Notes: generated by a model not told the origin, from the letters alone. A stretch of DNA of 64,000 nt from Bacteroidales bacterium (GCA_017630155.1 JAGBVU010000031.1:62001-126000); one strand, 5' to 3'; shown: positions 22,782-34,384, counted from the stretch's first letter. Numbers and translations: made by a program.

Positions 22782-24446
22782 ATGGAGTGGATTAATACTT
22801 TATTGTGGGATTCTTCATCCATCGCACATATAGTGCTCCTCTACGCTTTCGTGATAGCTGGAGGAGTTATGCTTGGTAAGTTTAAAATTTGTGGTGTCTC
22901 ATTTGGAGTTACTTTCGTACTTTTCGTAGGTCTCCTTATGGGACACTTCGGTTTCGGATGCACCCCCTCTGTCCTGAAGTTTGTCAAAGAGTTTGGTTTG
23001 ATACTCTTTGTCTATTGTATCGGTCTGCAGGTGGGACCATCCTTCTTCTCATCGATGAAGTCGGGTGGTGTCAAACTCAACAGTCTCGCAGTGGGGCTGG
23101 TAGCTTTGAATATCCTTGTGGCATTTGCCGTATACTATATTGACGGAGGGATAGATTTCCCGATGATAGTGGGCATGCTCTGCGGTGCAGTAACCAATAC
23201 ACCCGGTCTTGGTGCAGCCAATGAGGCCCTTGCTCAGATGAATTACACCGGTGACCCTATTGCCCTTGCCTATGCCTGTGCATATCCTCTGGGCGTAGTG
23301 GGTATCATTGTATCCATTGTCCTTATCAGATATCTTGGAAAGGTAAACCTCAAAAAGGAGGAGGCAGAGATAATGGCCAAAACCGCAGAGGCCAAAACTG
23401 CACCCAAATTTCTCTATCTGGAGGTGAAGAATGAGGCATTGGTGGGCAAGTCCCTCCCTGAGGTGACCGATCTTCTCGGACGCCATTTCGTCTGCTCTCG
23501 CATCCGACACGATGGGCATGTTAGTATCCCCACTAAAGAGACCAAAGTCTTCCTCGGTGATGTGATGTACATAGTGTGCTCGGATGAAGATCGTGAATCT
23601 GTAGCAGCATTTATAGGTGTGGAGGCTAAGATTGATTGGGAAAAACAGGATACACCATTGGTGTCAAAACGTATCCTTGTAACCAAAGATGAAATAAATG
23701 GCAAGACACTCGGAAGTCTCAACCTTCGTGCCCTTTATGGTGTCAATGTGACCAGGGTACACCGTTCAGGACTTCAGTTCTTTGCCGATCCTGACCTGAG
23801 GCTTATGGTAGGTGACAGGGTGGTAGTGGTAGGACAGCAGTCAGATGTGGACAAAGTGGGAGAGTTCCTGGGCAATGAGCTCAAGAATCTTGATTCACCC
23901 CACCTTACCACCATATTTTTGGGTATTGCTCTCGGTATAGTCTTCGGAAGCATTCCGATCGCTTTCCCTGGTATGCCTACGCCACTCAAACTCGGCTTGG
24001 CCGGTGGACCACTCATCGTGGCTATCCTGGTGGGAAGTTTCGGGTATAAACTCGGACTTGTTACTTATACCACCCAGAGTGCAAATATGATGCTCCGCGA
24101 AGTGGGCATCTCCCTCTTCCTGGCAAGTGTCGGAATAGAGGCTGGTGGAGGCTTTATCAACTCACTTGTAAATGGTGACGGACTCCTCTTCGTCCTTTAC
24201 GGACTCTTTATCACTATGATCCCTATTCTGATTATAGGACTGATTGCCAAGTATCTGCTCAAACTCGATTACTTTACCATCGCCGGTATCGTGGCGGGAA
24301 GCAATACCAACCCTTCAGCCCTTGCATATTCGAATTCACTTTCCAACAATATAAATGTACCTGCTGTAAGTTACTCTACAGTCTATCCTCTGGCCATGTT
24401 CTTGAGGATTCTGACAGCGCAGGTGCTCCTCCTTATAATGTTGTAA
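22782..24446 (+). CDS. AspT/YidE-like membrane transporter with two RCK_C domains
   Basis: A 554-residue inner-membrane protein with two hydrophobic halves of five or six helices each, enclosing a cytosolic centre (about 195-375) that holds two TrkA-C/RCK_C-like domains. Both halves have the Asp-Ala exchanger family signatures, for example [16 protein letters not shown] in the first and [12 protein letters not shown] in the second. Substrate is unknown; family members exchange amino or dicarboxylic acids. Its stop is one base before the kinase-like gene, which puts it in the same operon as the peptide-processing genes, although it may just be a neighbour. Confidence 0.85.
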
Positions 24447-24447
24447 A

Positions 24448-25335
24448 ATGGGCAGCCTAAGGAAGACATATCGGGTAGCAGGACACCAGTTCTCTTTCGT
24501 TATGGAGGAGAGCTCACCTTTGTGGAGGTATATTTTCCGGGCTTATGGTCCATTTGAGGAGGAGAATCCCGCAGATAACCTTTTCACTATCTCTCTGGAG
24601 GAGAGTGTCTCTGCTGAAGATGTGAGACAGGTATATGTGGACGAGAATCCTGAGCCTGGTTTTGTAAAGATTGCAGTTTACAGGTACCCTAAGGGGTATT
24701 ATATGGAGTTTACCCAATATGACAGCGATGCCATAAACGGGAAGATGACACTTGGAGAGGGTGGGGATGTGAGGGTTACCCTATATGGTGACGAGATGCA
24801 TCAATGGATGACCTTTACCAATGTGACTCAGGTGGTCTATTTTATCCGCACCTCTACATTGGATACAGTTATGGCCCACTCCTCAGCTATCCATTACGGG
24901 GGTAAAGCATATCTCTTCCTTGGGAAGAGCGGTACAGGTAAATCGACCCACAGCAGGATGTGGCTCGAAGGGATTGAGGGGGCAGAACTTATGAATGATG
25001 ACCACCCTATAATAAGAATCGGGGAAGACGGAATCCCTATTGCATACGGTTCACCCTGGAGCGGAAAGACCCATTGCTACCGGAATATTGCAGCACCTGT
25101 AGGAGCTATTGTGAGGATACGTCAGGAGAAGGAGAATGTTATAAGGAGGCTCCGACCTGTCGAGGCGTATGGCTCTGTGATGGCGAGTTGTTCTGGATTC
25201 CCTATTGAGGAGAGATTTACTGAGGGTAAGAGCAATACCCTCCAGAAGATAATCAAAGGTGCCCCATGCTGGGAACTTGGCTGTCTTCCAAATGTGGATG
25301 CGGCTGTGGTTTGCAGGGGGGCTGTATGTGAATAG
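24448..25335 (+). CDS. HPr-kinase/phosphorylase-like protein
   Basis: A 295-residue protein with an HPrK/PEPCK-like nucleotide fold in its C-terminal half: P-loop GKSGTGKST near 158-166, an acidic MNDDHPI motif near 181, and a GSPWSGKTH motif near 205 that is typical of HPr-kinase-related proteins found in peptide natural-product clusters, where some relatives phosphorylate a precursor peptide. The N-terminal half (1-140) has no recognised domain. HPr itself is not encoded nearby. The tight spacing to the next gene (two bases) indicates one operon. Actual kinase activity and target are not shown. Confidence 0.75.
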   Translation: MGSLRKTYRVAGHQFSFVMEESSPLWRYIFRAYGPFEEENPADNLFTISLEESVSAEDVRQVYVDENPEPGFVKIAVYRYPKGYYMEFTQYDSDAINGKMTLGEGGDVRVTLYGDEMHQWMTFTNVTQVVYFIRTSTLDTVMAHSSAIHYGGKAYLFLGKSGTGKSTHSRMWLEGIEGAELMNDDHPIIRIGEDGIPIAYGSPWSGKTHCYRNIAAPVGAIVRIRQEKENVIRRLRPVEAYGSVMASCSGFPIEERFTEGKSNTLQKIIKGAPCWELGCLPNVDAAVVCRGAVCE

Positions 25336-25337
25336 AT

Positions 25338-25793
25338 ATGGGTGAGAAACTGACCATACCCAACTCCATATTTTTCTCAGAGGTGGAATCCCATCTCAGA
25401 GAGGGGAAGAGTGTGGTGATACCGGTAAAAGGGTATAGTATGCTCCCATTTATCAGAGATGGTAGAGATAGTGTGGAGCTCCGCGGCAAGATGGAATTGG
25501 AGGTGGGTGATATTGCGCTGGCCAGACTGGGCAATGGACATTTTGTCCTTCACAGGATATGGGAGATAGATGGGGAGAGGGTGATTCTGATGGGTGACGG
25601 TAATATCTCCGGTAAAGAGATTTGCACTCGCGGGGATGTCATAGGAGTAGCCTCTAAAATCTTCAGAGGTAAAAAGGTGATTGACTGTGCTTCTGCTTCG
25701 TATGTAAGAAATGTAAAGATATGGAGGAGACTCCTCCCTATAAGAAGATATATTCTGGCGATTTACCGCCGATTGATAAAGTTAGGATTATGA
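25338..25793 (+). CDS. S24/S26-type peptidase, signal-peptidase-like
   Basis: A 151-residue small serine peptidase domain. The nucleophile motif KGYSMLPFI places Ser34; LHRI places His72 and MGDGN places Asp87. This Ser-His-Asp pattern is that of the archaeal/ER/SipW-type S26B enzymes rather than the Ser-Lys dyad of bacterial LepB. There is no clear membrane anchor; the C-terminal 25 residues form a basic amphipathic stretch (IWRRLLPIRRYIL). A cytosolic or membrane-attached leader protease for the downstream peptide is an attractive but unproven role. Its stop overlaps the PqqD start as ATGA. Confidence 0.75.
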   Translation: MGEKLTIPNSIFFSEVESHLREGKSVVIPVKGYSMLPFIRDGRDSVELRGKMELEVGDIALARLGNGHFVLHRIWEIDGERVILMGDGNISGKEICTRGDVIGVASKIFRGKKVIDCASASYVRNVKIWRRLLPIRRYILAIYRRLIKLGL

Positions 25794-26056
25794 GGATTAA
25801 AAAAGGTTTCAAACTAAGGGAAATAATGGGCGAATTCGCTGTTATAGGCGAGGGGCTCGAACAGGTCAATTTCAATAAGATAATTTCTCTCAACAGCACT
25901 GCTGCATACATTTGGAAAGAGATTGAGGGGAGGGATTTTGATGCGGATATGGTAGCTGACCTCCTTTTGGCAAAGTATGATGTAGAGAATGAGAGGGCCA
26001 TCTCTGATGCAACAGCCCTGGTGCAGAAACTTGTCGAGAACGGCTTGACAGAGTAA
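25790..26056 (+). CDS. PqqD-like peptide chaperone (RRE domain)
   Basis: An 88-residue protein of the PqqD family, whose winged-helix fold binds leader peptides of ribosomal natural products. The hallmark LNSTAAYIWKEIEG is at 34-47, followed by the usual helical segment and an LVQKLVENGL end. The ATG at 25790 overlaps the previous stop (ATGA), so the two are translationally coupled; it is preferred over an earlier frame start inside the peptidase gene. With a kinase-like protein, a protease and an exporter next door it is the strongest mark of a peptide-modification system here. Confidence 0.85.
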   Translation: MRIKKGFKLREIMGEFAVIGEGLEQVNFNKIISLNSTAAYIWKEIEGRDFDADMVADLLLAKYDVENERAISDATALVQKLVENGLTE

Positions 26057-26062
26057 AGCTAA

Positions 26063-27703
26063 ATGGTAATCAGGAGGATTATACAGATTCTACCCAAAGA
26101 GTTTTACCGGACAGGCGGCTGGATTGTGGCCACTGTCCCGGTGAGGGCCCTTTTGAATCTTGTGGGGGTGGCTGCACTCCTTCCTGTTCTTCAGGTGGTC
26201 CTCGATGAAAATACTACCGGACTGAGCCCTGTGCTCATCTGCCTTGGAGTTCTTGGGGTCATATTTCTTAAAAATCTACTGAATATACTATTGGGGGCAT
26301 ATCAGAACAGATACCTTCTCAAAATATATAGATACTTCTCCACTGCACTCTTCTCGAATCTCTACAGGAAGGGTCTCCTCTATGTTAAAGGGCGCAACTC
26401 TGCAGAGATTTCTCACGAGATCAACGGTGTATGCTACTCTTTTTCTCTGGGGGTTCTATCTCCACTCCTAAATATGGCAGGTGAGTTACTATTGCTGCTG
26501 CTCATTTACATCGGACTTATATTCTATTCCCCTATAGCATCGGTACTGGTCCCTGTATGCTTTATACCCGTCATATTGCTCTATGTACATATGGTTAAAA
26601 ACAGGGTGCAGATGTATGGAAAAAGGGAGAACGAGGCGAGGAGGAAGATGTGGAAAACTGTAGTGGAGACCTTTAGGGGATATGCTGAGGTGGAAGTCAA
26701 TGGGGCATTCCCATCTATAGCCAGACAGTTTGATGACAATTTGCTGGAGATTTCACAGCAGCGGGAGAAGATGACTGTAGTGCAGCAGCTCCCGAGTGCT
26801 TTGATAGAGTTCGCGGTAGTGGGGTGTATGGTCCTCCTTGTGGCATTAAGCGGAGCTTTTGAAGAGGGGAGTCTGAGTGTGATGGTGGGTGTTTTTGCTA
26901 TTGCCGCTATGAGAATGCTCCCTGCAGTAAGGACATTGGCAAATGGGTGGACATCGGTGAAGAACGGGATGTACAGTCTTGATATCATAGAACAGGGTCT
27001 TTCGGAAGAGGGGGTATGTAACAGTGTGAAGGAGCAGTTCACTTTTGAGGATGCGCTTCAGATGAGGGGTGTGTCATTTACATTCCCTGAGGGTGGGCAT
27101 AAGGTTTTTGACCGATTTTCTATGGAGATCCGTAAAGGTGAGAAGGTGGGTATAAAAGGGGCCTCAGGGGCAGGGAAGACTACCCTTTTCAACTTGCTGC
27201 TGGGATTCTACAGACCCGATGAAGGTGGAGTCTATATTGATGGGAAAGAATTGACTGTAGAGAATCGTGCAGGGTGGCTCAAATATGCCGGATATGTGCA
27301 GCAGGATGTATTCATCCTTGACGCCTCTCTGGCTCAGAATATTGCATTGGGTGTCAGACCTGAAGATATTGACCGGGAGAAGGTGGAGAGGATTATTCAG
27401 GAGGTCTCATTATCTTCATATCTCAAGCAACTCCCTGAAGGAATTGATAGCAGAATAGGGGAAATGGGGGCGAAACTATCCGGAGGACAGAAGCAGAGGG
27501 TAGGTATTGCCCGTGCTCTGTATAAAGGTGCAGATATATTGTTCCTGGATGAGGCGACCTCCTCACTTGATAGCGCCACAGAGGTCGAAATCAACGAATC
27601 TATACTCCATTTGTCCCGCTATAGAAGCGACCTTACCATTGTTGCTATAGCACATCGGGAGTCTTCGCTCGCATTCTGCGATAGAATTGTAGAGATTTTC
27701 TAA
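26063..27703 (+). CDS. ABC exporter, fused permease and ATPase
   Basis: A 546-residue type IV ABC half-transporter. Residues 1-300 hold about six membrane helices; the ATPase has Walker A GASGAGKT at about 366-373, Q-loop YVQQDVF, signature LSGGQKQR near 472 and Walker B/D-loop FLDEATSSLDS near 493. There is no N-terminal C39 peptidase domain, so any leader removal would need a separate enzyme such as the S26-like protein two genes upstream. It starts six bases after the PqqD-like gene. The transported molecule is unknown; a modified peptide is the favoured inference. Confidence 0.88.
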   Translation: MVIRRIIQILPKEFYRTGGWIVATVPVRALLNLVGVAALLPVLQVVLDENTTGLSPVLICLGVLGVIFLKNLLNILLGAYQNRYLLKIYRYFSTALFSNLYRKGLLYVKGRNSAEISHEINGVCYSFSLGVLSPLLNMAGELLLLLLIYIGLIFYSPIASVLVPVCFIPVILLYVHMVKNRVQMYGKRENEARRKMWKTVVETFRGYAEVEVNGAFPSIARQFDDNLLEISQQREKMTVVQQLPSALIEFAVVGCMVLLVALSGAFEEGSLSVMVGVFAIAAMRMLPAVRTLANGWTSVKNGMYSLDIIEQGLSEEGVCNSVKEQFTFEDALQMRGVSFTFPEGGHKVFDRFSMEIRKGEKVGIKGASGAGKTTLFNLLLGFYRPDEGGVYIDGKELTVENRAGWLKYAGYVQQDVFILDASLAQNIALGVRPEDIDREKVERIIQEVSLSSYLKQLPEGIDSRIGEMGAKLSGGQKQRVGIARALYKGADILFLDEATSSLDSATEVEINESILHLSRYRSDLTIVAIAHRESSLAFCDRIVEIF

Positions 27704-27713
27704 AGTATCTAAG

Positions 27714-27743
27714 TTGTTTTAGATTGGAAAATGTTTATATTTG
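27714..27743 (+). promoter_or_regulatory. Promoter of the short peptide and FISUMP lipoprotein
   Basis: TTG at 27714-27716, a 19-base spacer and a perfect TATATTTG at 27736-27743. Transcription should start near 27750, 23 bases before the peptide ATG. This separates the peptide-lipoprotein unit from the upstream operon. Confidence 0.85.
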
Positions 27744-27772
27744 CATTAATGTAAATATAGACTTATATCGTT

Positions 27773-27904
27773 ATGACTGAAAATATCAAGAACCAGTACC
27801 GCTCTCCTGAGATGGAGATTATAGACCTTTCGCTTGAGTCAGGCTTCTGTTCAAGCACACCTGGAGGCACCTCCCCTGATTTGGATAACAATACATGGAA
27901 CTAA
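27773..27904 (+). CDS. Short peptide, candidate precursor (43 aa)
   Basis: A 43-codon gene right after a consensus promoter. The N-terminal part is charged (MTENIKNQ), then comes a conserved block at residues 9-28 with Tyr9, Pro12, Glu15, Ile16-Ile17-Asp18, Ser20, Glu22, Gly24-Phe25 and Ser28; the tail has Cys26, Thr29, Gly31-Gly32 and ends in TWN. A second peptide at 34265-34384 shares the block, so this is a real coding family. Its place just downstream of PqqD, kinase-like, protease and exporter genes makes it a candidate ribosomal precursor; it may alternatively be a leader peptide for the lipoprotein. No signal peptide is visible. Confidence 0.7.
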   Translation: MTENIKNQYRSPEMEIIDLSLESGFCSSTPGGTSPDLDNNTWN

Positions 27905-27921
27905 TCGATGGAGGAGATGTT

Positions 27922-29829
27922 ATGAAGAAAATGATCAGATTGGCCATTTGGACCCTTTTATTTACCCTGCTATACTCTTGCACCAGAATCGAGAATACTA
28001 TTAGTGAGGATCTTGCACTCTATCCTGCTGAGATAGGGGTAAGTATATCATCAGAAGGAGGCACTAAAGCCTATCTTGGCGATTCGGAAGGGGAGACTAC
28101 ACCTATTTACTGGAGTGATGATGAGAGTGACGAGATTAAAGTGAAGATTGATGGTGTGGACTATATTTTCAAGAAAGTTGGGGTTACCGAAAGCTCGCAA
28201 AATGCAACATTCAGATGCGAAGCTGCACCAGCAGTAGAGGCAGGAAAGACCTATACAGCCACATACAGCAGCGATGGCTTCAATGGTGTAGGTTTCTATC
28301 AGAATGGAACCAAAAGTGCTCTAAAAGACTATATTGACCTCTCTGCGTCATATACAGCTGTGGAGGGTGATACATGGGAGGATGTATTGTTCAATTTTGA
28401 AATGGAGCATGCCCTGGTAAAGATCACTGTGAAGAGTACTGTGGTTATGAATCGTGATGTGACATTTGAATTGAGGGAAAATGTTGTAGGAGAGGGATAT
28501 GGAACAGGGGTTGTCACCTCTACCAGTAGCACTACCAGATTGGTCTATGATGAGGTGGCCGGCTGTTATGTTTCTGAGTGCTACTTTGCTATGGAACCAA
28601 GGAGCTACCAGGATGTGGTTTTGGAACTTACTGTATTCATAGATAATGATGTTGAGCCGTTTAACTTCTCCACCAGAAAATTCAGATATGATATGAGTGA
28701 TATCACTATGGAGAAGAACAATATCTACTATGTGGAGAAGAATATCGTAGAGGACGCCACCCCTCCTCAGATTCTGAATATTGTAAAACTCTCTGGAGAG
28801 TATAATACTTCTACTGCAAACTCCTATATAGTGAACCCTGTAGTGGGTGAAGATAACACTTTCTACAGCATATACGCCAAGTATAAGGGTAACAGCTCAT
28901 CAGTCTTAGATGAGATCGGGTCACAAATCAAAAGTGTCAAAGTGTTATGGGAGTCAGACGGAACTACCGGGTCTATCGGACATGGAGATATAATCACCAA
29001 GACTTTATGGCACAATGACTACATCTATTTTGATCTAAATGCTTCAGGAAAAGAGGGAAATGCACTTATTGGTGCATATGACAGCGAGGGGAACATCGTG
29101 TGGTCGTGGCATATATGGGTTACCGATACCCCGGCAGAACACGAATATATTAATGCTTCAAGTGTCCATTTCGGTACATATATGGACCGTAACCTTGGTG
29201 CCCTAACTGCCACTCCTGGTGAAGCAGGTATAGCAGGCCTTCTTTATCAGTGGGGAAGAAAGGACCCTTTCCTCACCTCGGGTGATATCGCTTCCGAAAC
29301 TCCAAATACAGTAGCATCATCTGTTCTGTCTGAAGATATGCAGTGGATGGTGATACCCTCAAGTCAGGTGGTAGGTACAGTCGCTTTTGCAACCAAAAAT
29401 CCTACAACATTCATAACAGGTGTATCCCCCAATTATTCATGGCTACATACACCGGATATTACCCTGTGGGGCAACGACAAGACTATCTACGACCCTTGTC
29501 CTGCAGGATGGAAAGTGGCCCAAAGTGAGCTTGGAGCCAATTTGGAGGTCATCTTTTATGTGGGTGAACCTGTGTTTACCTCTGGCTGTGGCAAAATCTC
29601 CTATGACCGCTCAAATGTGAATTATGCTTATTATCCAGCATCCGGTCATCTTCATTTCCAGAGAGGTAATCTGGAATATGTGTCAAAAGTGGGATTTATA
29701 TGGAGTTCTACTGTTGCATCCAATGGCTCTTCTTACGGATTTATGTTTGATGAGAATACAGAGTTGGACTTCGATTACAAGTTCTACTCGTCACAAGGGG
29801 CATCAGTCCGTTGCCAAAAGATAGATTAA
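27922..29829 (+). CDS. Fimbrillin-like/FISUMP lipoprotein
   Basis: A 635-residue lipoprotein: lipobox LLYSC with Cys20. Residues of about 25-290 form a fimbrillin-like beta domain (KAYLGDSEGETTPIYW, FNFEMEHALVKITV). The C-terminal half resembles the Fibrobacter major paralogous (FISUMP) domain: MDRNLGALTATPG, LYQWGRKDPF, YDPCPAGWKV and a final VRCQK. The ATG at 27922 follows a GGAGGAG site and gives the signal; an upstream ATG at 27895 overlaps the peptide stop. The mature protein should sit on the outer membrane. It is 17 bases downstream of the short peptide and probably on its transcript. Confidence 0.8.
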   Translation: MKKMIRLAIWTLLFTLLYSCTRIENTISEDLALYPAEIGVSISSEGGTKAYLGDSEGETTPIYWSDDESDEIKVKIDGVDYIFKKVGVTESSQNATFRCEAAPAVEAGKTYTATYSSDGFNGVGFYQNGTKSALKDYIDLSASYTAVEGDTWEDVLFNFEMEHALVKITVKSTVVMNRDVTFELRENVVGEGYGTGVVTSTSSTTRLVYDEVAGCYVSECYFAMEPRSYQDVVLELTVFIDNDVEPFNFSTRKFRYDMSDITMEKNNIYYVEKNIVEDATPPQILNIVKLSGEYNTSTANSYIVNPVVGEDNTFYSIYAKYKGNSSSVLDEIGSQIKSVKVLWESDGTTGSIGHGDIITKTLWHNDYIYFDLNASGKEGNALIGAYDSEGNIVWSWHIWVTDTPAEHEYINASSVHFGTYMDRNLGALTATPGEAGIAGLLYQWGRKDPFLTSGDIASETPNTVASSVLSEDMQWMVIPSSQVVGTVAFATKNPTTFITGVSPNYSWLHTPDITLWGNDKTIYDPCPAGWKVAQSELGANLEVIFYVGEPVFTSGCGKISYDRSNVNYAYYPASGHLHFQRGNLEYVSKVGFIWSSTVASNGSSYGFMFDENTELDFDYKFYSSQGASVRCQKID

Positions 29830-29833
29830 CATA

Positions 29834-33267: not shown

Positions 33268-34233
33268 TTATTTGGTCCATCCTGAGAGTGGCAGTCTATA
33301 TGATTTTCCAATTTCGATAGTATGGTCATTTCTGTCAATGTTGAGTGATGCGAAACTTGTAGCATTTTCTCCATTGGTAATTGAGAATACTAAATCTGTA
33401 AATGTTGCATCTTCTGGTTTGCAGAATACAAAGCAGTAAGATACATCTTCACCGTTTAATACCCCCTGTGCAAAACCAGATTTTGTTGAATTATCAAGCC
33501 AAAAGCCATTGGTGGTTTGTGGAGCCAAATAAAGCACCCCTTCTTTAAGGGCCACAACTCTATATAGATCTTCCGGTGTTGAATTTTGTTTTATGGATAA
33601 TCTCATTTTCAGGTTTTTGAACCAGGTAGAATATGTGTTATTAAATATAGGGTTGCTAGTCCCATCTGTAATGTCTTTGCTCACTGAAAATTGGAATAAA
33701 GCACTATACAGCTGTAAGTCTATTGTGGATAGTGTAATTGTAGTACCGTCCGATGTGTAAGTTCCTTTATGGGACATAAATTCTCCTCCTTCATATCCAC
33801 TAAGCTGGTATCCGTCATAGGTGTTAGGTGCAGTACCTACTTCAGTGGGAATAGTTGAAGCTGTTACATCCCCTCTATGGTGGATGGCCAGATAAGTGCC
33901 ACTTTCGCCCAAGTCAGTTATATTTTCAGAAGTGAGAGTTATATCTGACCATACAGATGATGTATAAGTTGTCGTGAATTTATGAAGGACCTTTTCCATA
34001 GGCCCATACCAATTTGTAGCCCCTGCAGGTTTGAAAATTATCATGACTTGATCCCCCTCTGCCCAAGCAGTTTTGACAGCTTTGGTCTGGCCAGGGTCGC
34101 CAAGTACAGGTTTGTCTGCGATGGTGAACTTTACTTTTACTGTGCTATTTGAGTCGGCACTGTCAATTTTTTGACATCCTGAAGCAGTTATAACCAATGC
34201 GATAACTGCCATAATGATATTTCTAAATTTCAT
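33268..34233 (-). CDS. Fimbrillin-like lipoprotein downstream of short peptide 2
   Basis: A 321-residue lipoprotein with lipobox TASGC (Cys20). The body is beta-rich with fimbrillin-like features: VKVKFTIADKP after the linker, KTAWAEGDQVMIIF, an LYSALFQFSVSKD segment and the closing SYRLPLSGWTK. It lacks the FISUMP half seen in the 27.9 kb lipoprotein. It is 31 bases downstream of a short peptide gene, repeating the arrangement at 27.8 kb. Base composition is more A/T-rich than the neighbours. Confidence 0.78.
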   Translation of the reverse strand: MKFRNIIMAVIALVITASGCQKIDSADSNSTVKVKFTIADKPVLGDPGQTKAVKTAWAEGDQVMIIFKPAGATNWYGPMEKVLHKFTTTYTSSVWSDITLTSENITDLGESGTYLAIHHRGDVTASTIPTEVGTAPNTYDGYQLSGYEGGEFMSHKGTYTSDGTTITLSTIDLQLYSALFQFSVSKDITDGTSNPIFNNTYSTWFKNLKMRLSIKQNSTPEDLYRVVALKEGVLYLAPQTTNGFWLDNSTKSGFAQGVLNGEDVSYCFVFCKPEDATFTDLVFSITNGENATSFASLNIDRNDHTIEIGKSYRLPLSGWTK

Positions 34234-34264: not shown

Positions 34265-34384
34265 TTACCATTGTTCTTCCCCTTCAAATCCGTCATAATT
34301 TGGCGATGCGGCAAAACCCTGTTCCACCGACATTTCGACTACCTCTAGCAGAGGAGCTTCGTAGAATTGATTTTCCTTCTTCAT
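34265..34384 (-). CDS. Short peptide 2, paralogue of the 27.8 kb peptide (39 aa)
   Basis: A 39-codon gene, too short for usual gene finding. Its conserved block at residues 8-27 matches peptide 1: Tyr8, Pro11, Glu14, Val15-Val16-Glu17, Ser19, Glu21, Gly23-Phe24 and Ser27, and it also ends near a Trp (EEQW). There is no Cys and no signal peptide. The tail is acidic (DGFEGEE). As with peptide 1, a fimbrillin-like lipoprotein follows. No processing genes are adjacent here, so if it is a substrate the enzymes at 24.4-27.7 kb would act in trans. Confidence 0.65.
   Translation of the reverse strand: MKKENQFYEAPLLEVVEMSVEQGFAASPNYDGFEGEEQW

Follow-up and report, generated by a model that had tools for sequence, protein, structure and literature searches.

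A proposed peptide maturation-and-export cassette in Bacteroidales, probably related to the linear polyphosphorylated peptide pathway of Bacillota

Four adjacent genes of a Bacteroidales genome (24448-27703) probably constitute a single cassette that matures and exports short peptides made by the ribosome. In gene set and leader logic it would be a homologue of the pathway of the linear polyphosphorylated peptides (LPPs), and this one cassette would serve eight dispersed precursors; its biochemical steps, as well as the role of the lipoproteins encoded next to the precursors, are those we infer. Coordinates refer to the window, that is, the whole stretch of 64,000 nucleotides that was analysed. 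Gene content, its conservation and linkage, co-occurrence with the peptides, their common motif, the pairing with lipoprotein genes and module exchange are shown by the analysis. With this, the LPP-type RiPP family, reported in 2026 as confined to Bacillota, would be extended to a major gut phylum; new here are the phylum, the leader motif, the dispersed precursors on one cassette, and the exchangeable precursor-lipoprotein module. Furthermore, the 83 distinct precursors collected constitute a large natural set, the lipoprotein is a genetic partner that the LPP authors lacked and makes a role testable, and the phosphorylation site, leader boundary and contacts of the RiPP recognition element (RRE) are predicted to the residue.

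LPPs were demonstrated experimentally in Bacillota (Nat Commun, May 2026; PMC13381572), the reference cluster being lpp of Paenibacillus alginolyticus DSM5050, with a SipW-like peptidase (LppS), an RRE (LppB), an HprK-like kinase (LppK), a nucleotidyltransferase (NTase, LppN) and an MsbA-like exporter (LppD). Leader residues Y-16 and P-13 bind LppB via pockets with N33 and D70, LppS together with LppB cleaves after F-E-T (in LppA, between FET and AQS), and LppK adds several phosphates to Ser3 of the core (PMC13381572). According to its authors, LPPs are restricted to Bacillota, and neither a final product nor a role was found; their clusters also occur in capsule loci, yet process peptides (PMC13381572). 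A literature search of open-licence papers found no prior report of the cassette in Bacteroidota.

The host is a 2.0-Mb Bacteroidales genome whose closest relatives are ruminant-gut Bacteroidales from metagenomes. As an earlier note on this DNA had described, the forward strand carries a run of five genes in which the PqqD start overlaps the S26 end (ATGA) and the remaining gaps measure 1-6 bases: an AspT-type antiporter with Asp-Al_Ex/TrkA_C domains (22782-24446; Pfam/NCBIfam), an HprK-like kinase of 295 aa, counterpart of LppK (24448-25335), an S26B/S24-like serine peptidase of 151 aa, counterpart of LppS (25338-25793), a PqqD-type discrete RRE of 88 aa, counterpart of LppB (25790-26056), and an ABC exporter, an MsbA/PglK-like permease-ATPase and counterpart of LppD (26063-27703). 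The promoter and 43-codon peptide gene of that description are likewise present on the same strand, the first as a Bacteroides-type promoter-like site (27714-27744) with elements TTG ... TATATTTG located 59 and 37 bp before the ATG, and the second as a 43-aa precursor (27773-27904) with a YxxP leader, the sequence LESGFCSS, a conserved Ser28 and an acidic tail ending in NTWN. Absent from the description was the partner gene of this peptide, encoding a 635-aa lipoprotein (27922-29829, forward) with lipobox LYSC and a weak C-terminal FISUMP-like match. A second family member, a 39-aa precursor (MKKENQFYEAPLLEVVEMSVEQGFAASPNYDGFEGEEQW), is encoded on the reverse strand at 34265-34384, directly upstream of a 321-aa lipoprotein gene (33268-34233, reverse). 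The antiporter, formerly counted as a fifth part, was rejected as a component and dropped from the unit, because its linkage is confined to the three genomes of the genus.

The kinase and peptidase identities proposed in the earlier note are weak by sequence, with matches to TIGR04352 (E=0.01) for the former, and to Peptidase_S24 (E=1.5e-4) and, below the cut-off, archaeal-type signal peptidase I (TIGR02228, E=3e-5) for the latter, and both are backed by AlphaFold models. The kinase model (pLDDT 93) has PEPCK and HPr kinase/phosphorylase as top PDB matches, and the peptidase model (pLDDT 92) matches LexA/UmuD/signal peptidase; the HPrK/PEPCK and LexA/signal-peptidase assignments are better supported by predicted fold than by sequence. 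Three kinase motifs are invariant among 20 relatives, the P-loop SGTGKST, NDD and GSPWSGKTHCY, as are G32, S34, M35, H72, R73, G86, D87, N89 and E94 of the peptidase among 15 relatives, with Ser34, His72 and Asp87 as candidate catalytic residues; an N-terminal membrane helix is not evident in the peptidase. The PqqD assignment is strong (PF05402, E=2.6e-15), with PDB matches to TfuB1 (6jx3), PbaB1 (9x90) and LppB (9x8z) itself, and its N35, Y63 and D73, invariant or nearly so among relatives, correspond by alignment position and spacing to LppB N33, Y60 and D70. The best NCBIfam matches of the exporter are MsbA/PglK, and the Pfam/NCBIfam scan detected no C39 domain in it, in agreement with the previous description of both proteins.

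The peptide belongs to a family with eight copies in the genome, distributed over six contigs and two of them inside the window, as identified with a profile built from eight peptides. Its members display YxxP, a Glu, GF(A/C)xS and a short acidic tail, often Trp-ended. The leader consensus is YxSPxxEVIEVxVExGF(A/C)xS. Among 83 distinct relatives anchored on YxxP, 70 have Glu 13 positions after the Tyr and 62 have Ser at position 19, and hydrophobic residues alternate in between. The tail sequence varies freely while the amino-acid motif stays conserved; tails have a mean net charge of -3.6, positive in 0/83, and Trp is found among the last three residues in 46/83. In the window peptide, the YxxPx[VILM] residues are Y9, P12 and M14. 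Upstream of the paralogous peptides, TAnnTTTG occurs within 60 bp in 6/8, against about 0.04 expected per site from the window background of 0.06 per 100 bp per strand. The peptide HMM had no match in the PDB, and a congeneric peptide pair showed 1.5 synonymous and 2.5 non-synonymous changes, too few to tell for dN/dS.

A lipoprotein-like gene directly follows the peptide in 54/77 family members (70%) versus 68/826 control genes (8%; p=2e-34), and in the host genome this holds for seven of the eight copies, the exception being L125. In Pfam, the lipoproteins of these pairs have diverse architectures, including Mfa_like_1 (fimbrillin-like), FISUMP, Big_2 (Ig-like) and LRR/DUF285, with many displaying no match, and therefore no single lipoprotein function is indicated. 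Comparison with a congener (L033) revealed that cassette DNA identity, of 64-80%, jumps to 90-97% from about position 27750, eases to 86-90% near the lipoprotein end and then returns to the flank level; overall, the peptide-lipoprotein block (27750-29830) is 86-97% identical and its flanks 64-85%, a profile that we read as a recent exchange of the block. In another congener (L032) the operon is present and its ABC exporter is directly followed by the neighbouring gene, and the genome (G012) carries five peptides elsewhere. Given this operon without the pair and the identity jump, peptide and lipoprotein seem to move as a pair, independently of the cassette.

Presence of the peptide follows that of the cassette across genomes. 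In a family sample of 150 genomes, HprK was found in 44 of 49 peptide genomes versus 15 of 101 others (59/150 overall, p=2e-19); in an order sample of 247 genomes, mostly from different families, a strong HprK was found in 9/12 versus 7/235 (16/247 overall, p=3e-10), and the association persisted without the host's own family (p=4e-8). All these p-values assume independent genomes; of the two samples, that of the order is the fairer. Exceptions occur in both directions: the family sample includes five peptide-positive genomes without HprK and PqqD, for which loss or incomplete assembly is possible because their genera include other cassette-bearing members, as well as 15 HprK-positive genomes in which no peptide was found, and three peptide-positive genomes of the order sample have no HprK, one of them with PqqD. 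Moreover, 17 of about 143 peptides are located within 10 kb of HprK, where about 1.3 are expected (p=3e-14), and in about ten genera peptide (PEP) and cassette lie side by side, in arrangements such as PqqD-NTase-ABC-PEP-lipoprotein-HprK-S26 (L198), PEP-lipoprotein-HprK-S26-PqqD-NTase-ABC (L191, L199) and PEP-lipoprotein-NTase-ABC-HprK-S26-PqqD (L201). Peptide, lipoprotein and cassette are also together in Dysgonomonas sp. 25 and Bacteroides sp. 519, the latter (L098) with the order peptide-lipoprotein-PqqD-NTase-ABC-HprK-S26. The earlier note would have abandoned its reading had related genomes displayed no conserved linkage of genes and peptide; both linkage and co-occurrence are strong, and the best reading is that one cassette serves the eight dispersed precursors of the genome.

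The cassette genes themselves form a conserved unit. In 80 public-genome loci and 30 loci of the family sample, HprK, S26 and PqqD are linked in shuffled gene orders in Bacteroidales and in Sphingobacterium (Sphingobacteriales), frequently accompanied by an ABC exporter, a PF14907 nucleotidyltransferase or both. In several lineages the trio adjoins Wza/Wzc polysaccharide genes or GT2/S9-peptidase genes, no peptide being recognised there. HprK and PqqD are present in nearly the same genomes of the family sample (HprK in 59, PqqD in 60, 58 in common). The nucleotidyltransferase, counterpart of LppN, is within the operon in many related genera and is not in the window operon; the sole PF14907 member found in the genome (L218:7383-8564; G000:C28:210382-211563) is 124 kb away, after a gene run resembling dTDP-sugar synthesis genes. 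Among the loci with GT2 and S9-peptidase genes, two encode an S26-like peptidase with an extra hydrophobic C-terminal region (L075:1959-2777, L077:8902-9732), which we presume to be similar to VanZ. In two genomes (L019:190-2376, L020:1486-3663), a continuous frame joins an IspG-like N-terminal part to HprK, either as a fusion or through a missed stop.

The resemblance to LPP systems comprises an S26B peptidase, a discrete RRE, an HprK-like kinase, an MsbA-like exporter, a PF14907-type nucleotidyltransferase (unlinked in the window genome) and no cyclase, along with a YxxP leader, a Glu near the cleavage site and a conserved Ser a few residues on. The enzymes that characterize LPP clusters were recovered, the S26B Ser-His-Asp peptidase by its invariant residues and fold, with a TIGR02228 match below the cut-off, together with the PqqD RRE, the HprK-like kinase and the MsbA-like transporter, except for an NTP transferase in the cluster, which the window operon lacks. 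The LPP consensus YxxPxVLxHQxIxFETxxS is matched in part: the family shares YxxPx[VILM], hydrophobic-E-x and a Ser further on, but lacks HQ, FET and the precise spacing, which is six from E to Ser versus four in LPP and 13 from Y to E versus 14. If the cut falls after E-x, the Tyr would lie about 15 residues from it (-15), compared to 16 in LppA, and the conserved Ser would be five residues into the predicted core; instead of the 45-aa LPP core there are acidic tails of about 10-30 aa that often end in Trp. Further differences are the Bacteroidota host, the eight dispersed precursors, the majority of which have a promoter to themselves and a paired lipoprotein gene, and a nucleotidyltransferase unlinked in the genus. 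Because the leader consensus differs, we call the system a putative LPP variant and not a plain member. The LPP paper (PMC13381572) has since overtaken the earlier statement that the locus fits no standard class. In turn, the evidence favours the RiPP-like pathway then proposed, with recognition by PqqD, modification by a kinase fold and leader removal by an S26B peptidase, and a homologous pathway was demonstrated in Bacillota (PMC13381572); the chemistry of the window system is predicted.

In the proposed pathway, the PqqD-type RRE would bind the YxxPx[VILM] leader as an added beta strand, in line with the conservation of its residues at the positions of LppB N33 and D70 that fix the leader Pro and Tyr. 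The HprK-like kinase would then phosphorylate the conserved Ser of GF(A/C)xS, Ser28 in the window peptide, and the S26B-type Ser-His-Asp peptidase, with the RRE presenting the substrate to it, would remove the leader near [V/L]E-x; by analogy with LppA, the cut may fall between LES and GFCSS, or alternatively after AxS. The MsbA-like exporter would translocate the acidic core, often Trp-ended, which outside the cell may work with the lipoprotein whose gene immediately follows that of its precursor, and the unlinked nucleotidyltransferase may attach a sugar to this phosphate group. More tentatively, one phosphopeptide-maturation cassette could activate many dispersed peptide-lipoprotein modules in Bacteroidota, each phosphorylated (perhaps phosphoglycosylated) acidic peptide being a ligand, tether or assembly factor of its own lipoprotein, and species could exchange these modules as cassettes of variable function.

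Other explanations were weighed against the maturation cassette. The trio could have a different substrate, one connected with the export of surface polysaccharides, with the peptide as a bystander, given that trio and nucleotidyltransferase lie beside Wza and Wzc in L049, L055, L061, L084, L098 and L106, that no family peptide was recognised near some of the Wza/Wzc-linked trios, and that the L032 operon has no adjacent peptide. We consider this unlikely, since peptide and cassette co-occur genome-wide and cluster locally, G012 keeps its five peptides despite having no adjacent pair, YxxP is the motif that such RREs bind, and LPP clusters in capsule loci of Bacillota do process peptides (PMC13381572). 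It is quite improbable that the short ORF is instead a cis-acting leader ORF or a chaperone-like partner of the downstream lipoprotein: its tight placement before lipoprotein genes (54/77) and the movement of the pair as one block would fit such a role, but conservation in 83 sequences concerns an amino-acid motif, with the tail free to vary, the presence of the peptide follows that of a cassette which usually lies at a different genomic location, and in the host genome copy L125 is not followed by a lipoprotein gene.

A lasso peptide or another cyclised RiPP, with its cyclase gene at a separate locus, would account for the YxxP leader, B1-like RRE, kinase, nucleotidyltransferase and ABC exporter, all common to paeninodin-type clusters (PMC8498205, PMC13381572). 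Indeed, phosphorylated lasso peptides of the paeninodin/pseudomycoidin type share with the window system a PqqD-like B1, an HprK-like K, a nucleotidyltransferase N, an ABC exporter D and an aromatic-xxP leader; in contrast, the window system has no macrolactam cyclase C or cysteine peptidase B2, an S26B enzyme instead, and YxxP rather than WxxP. As the earlier note had observed, no asparagine-synthetase-like or transglutaminase-like (B2) gene is found in the window operon, nor in the inspected neighbours; S26B is the leader peptidase of LPPs, and the cores of the 83 peptides vary freely with no fixed ring residues. This origin is therefore very improbable, and a lasso peptide identity was rejected for a cassette without cyclase or B2.

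Leaving the cassette reading as the preferred one, two further relatives of its parts deserve mention. The peptidase resembles SipW/archaeal-type signal peptidase I in its Ser-His-Asp S26B-type residues and LexA/signal-peptidase fold, and differs in that no N-terminal anchor was seen in it, its proposed substrate has no signal peptide and it is linked to an RRE. Plasmid pNP243 of Butyrivibrio fibrisolvens D1 (L212:8617-10640), from Bacillota, harbors HprK-like, PqqD, S24/S26, nucleotidyltransferase and ABC genes together with a 57-aa ORF (MKKAYVKPEL...GRIW) displaying YxxPxL, the motif EGV and a Trp at its C terminus; its kinase differs in having neither NDD nor GSPWSGKT, and its core is Cys-rich. 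This set is probably a Clostridia sister type of the system, and suggests that the theme is broader than either the Bacteroidota branch or the LPP branch.
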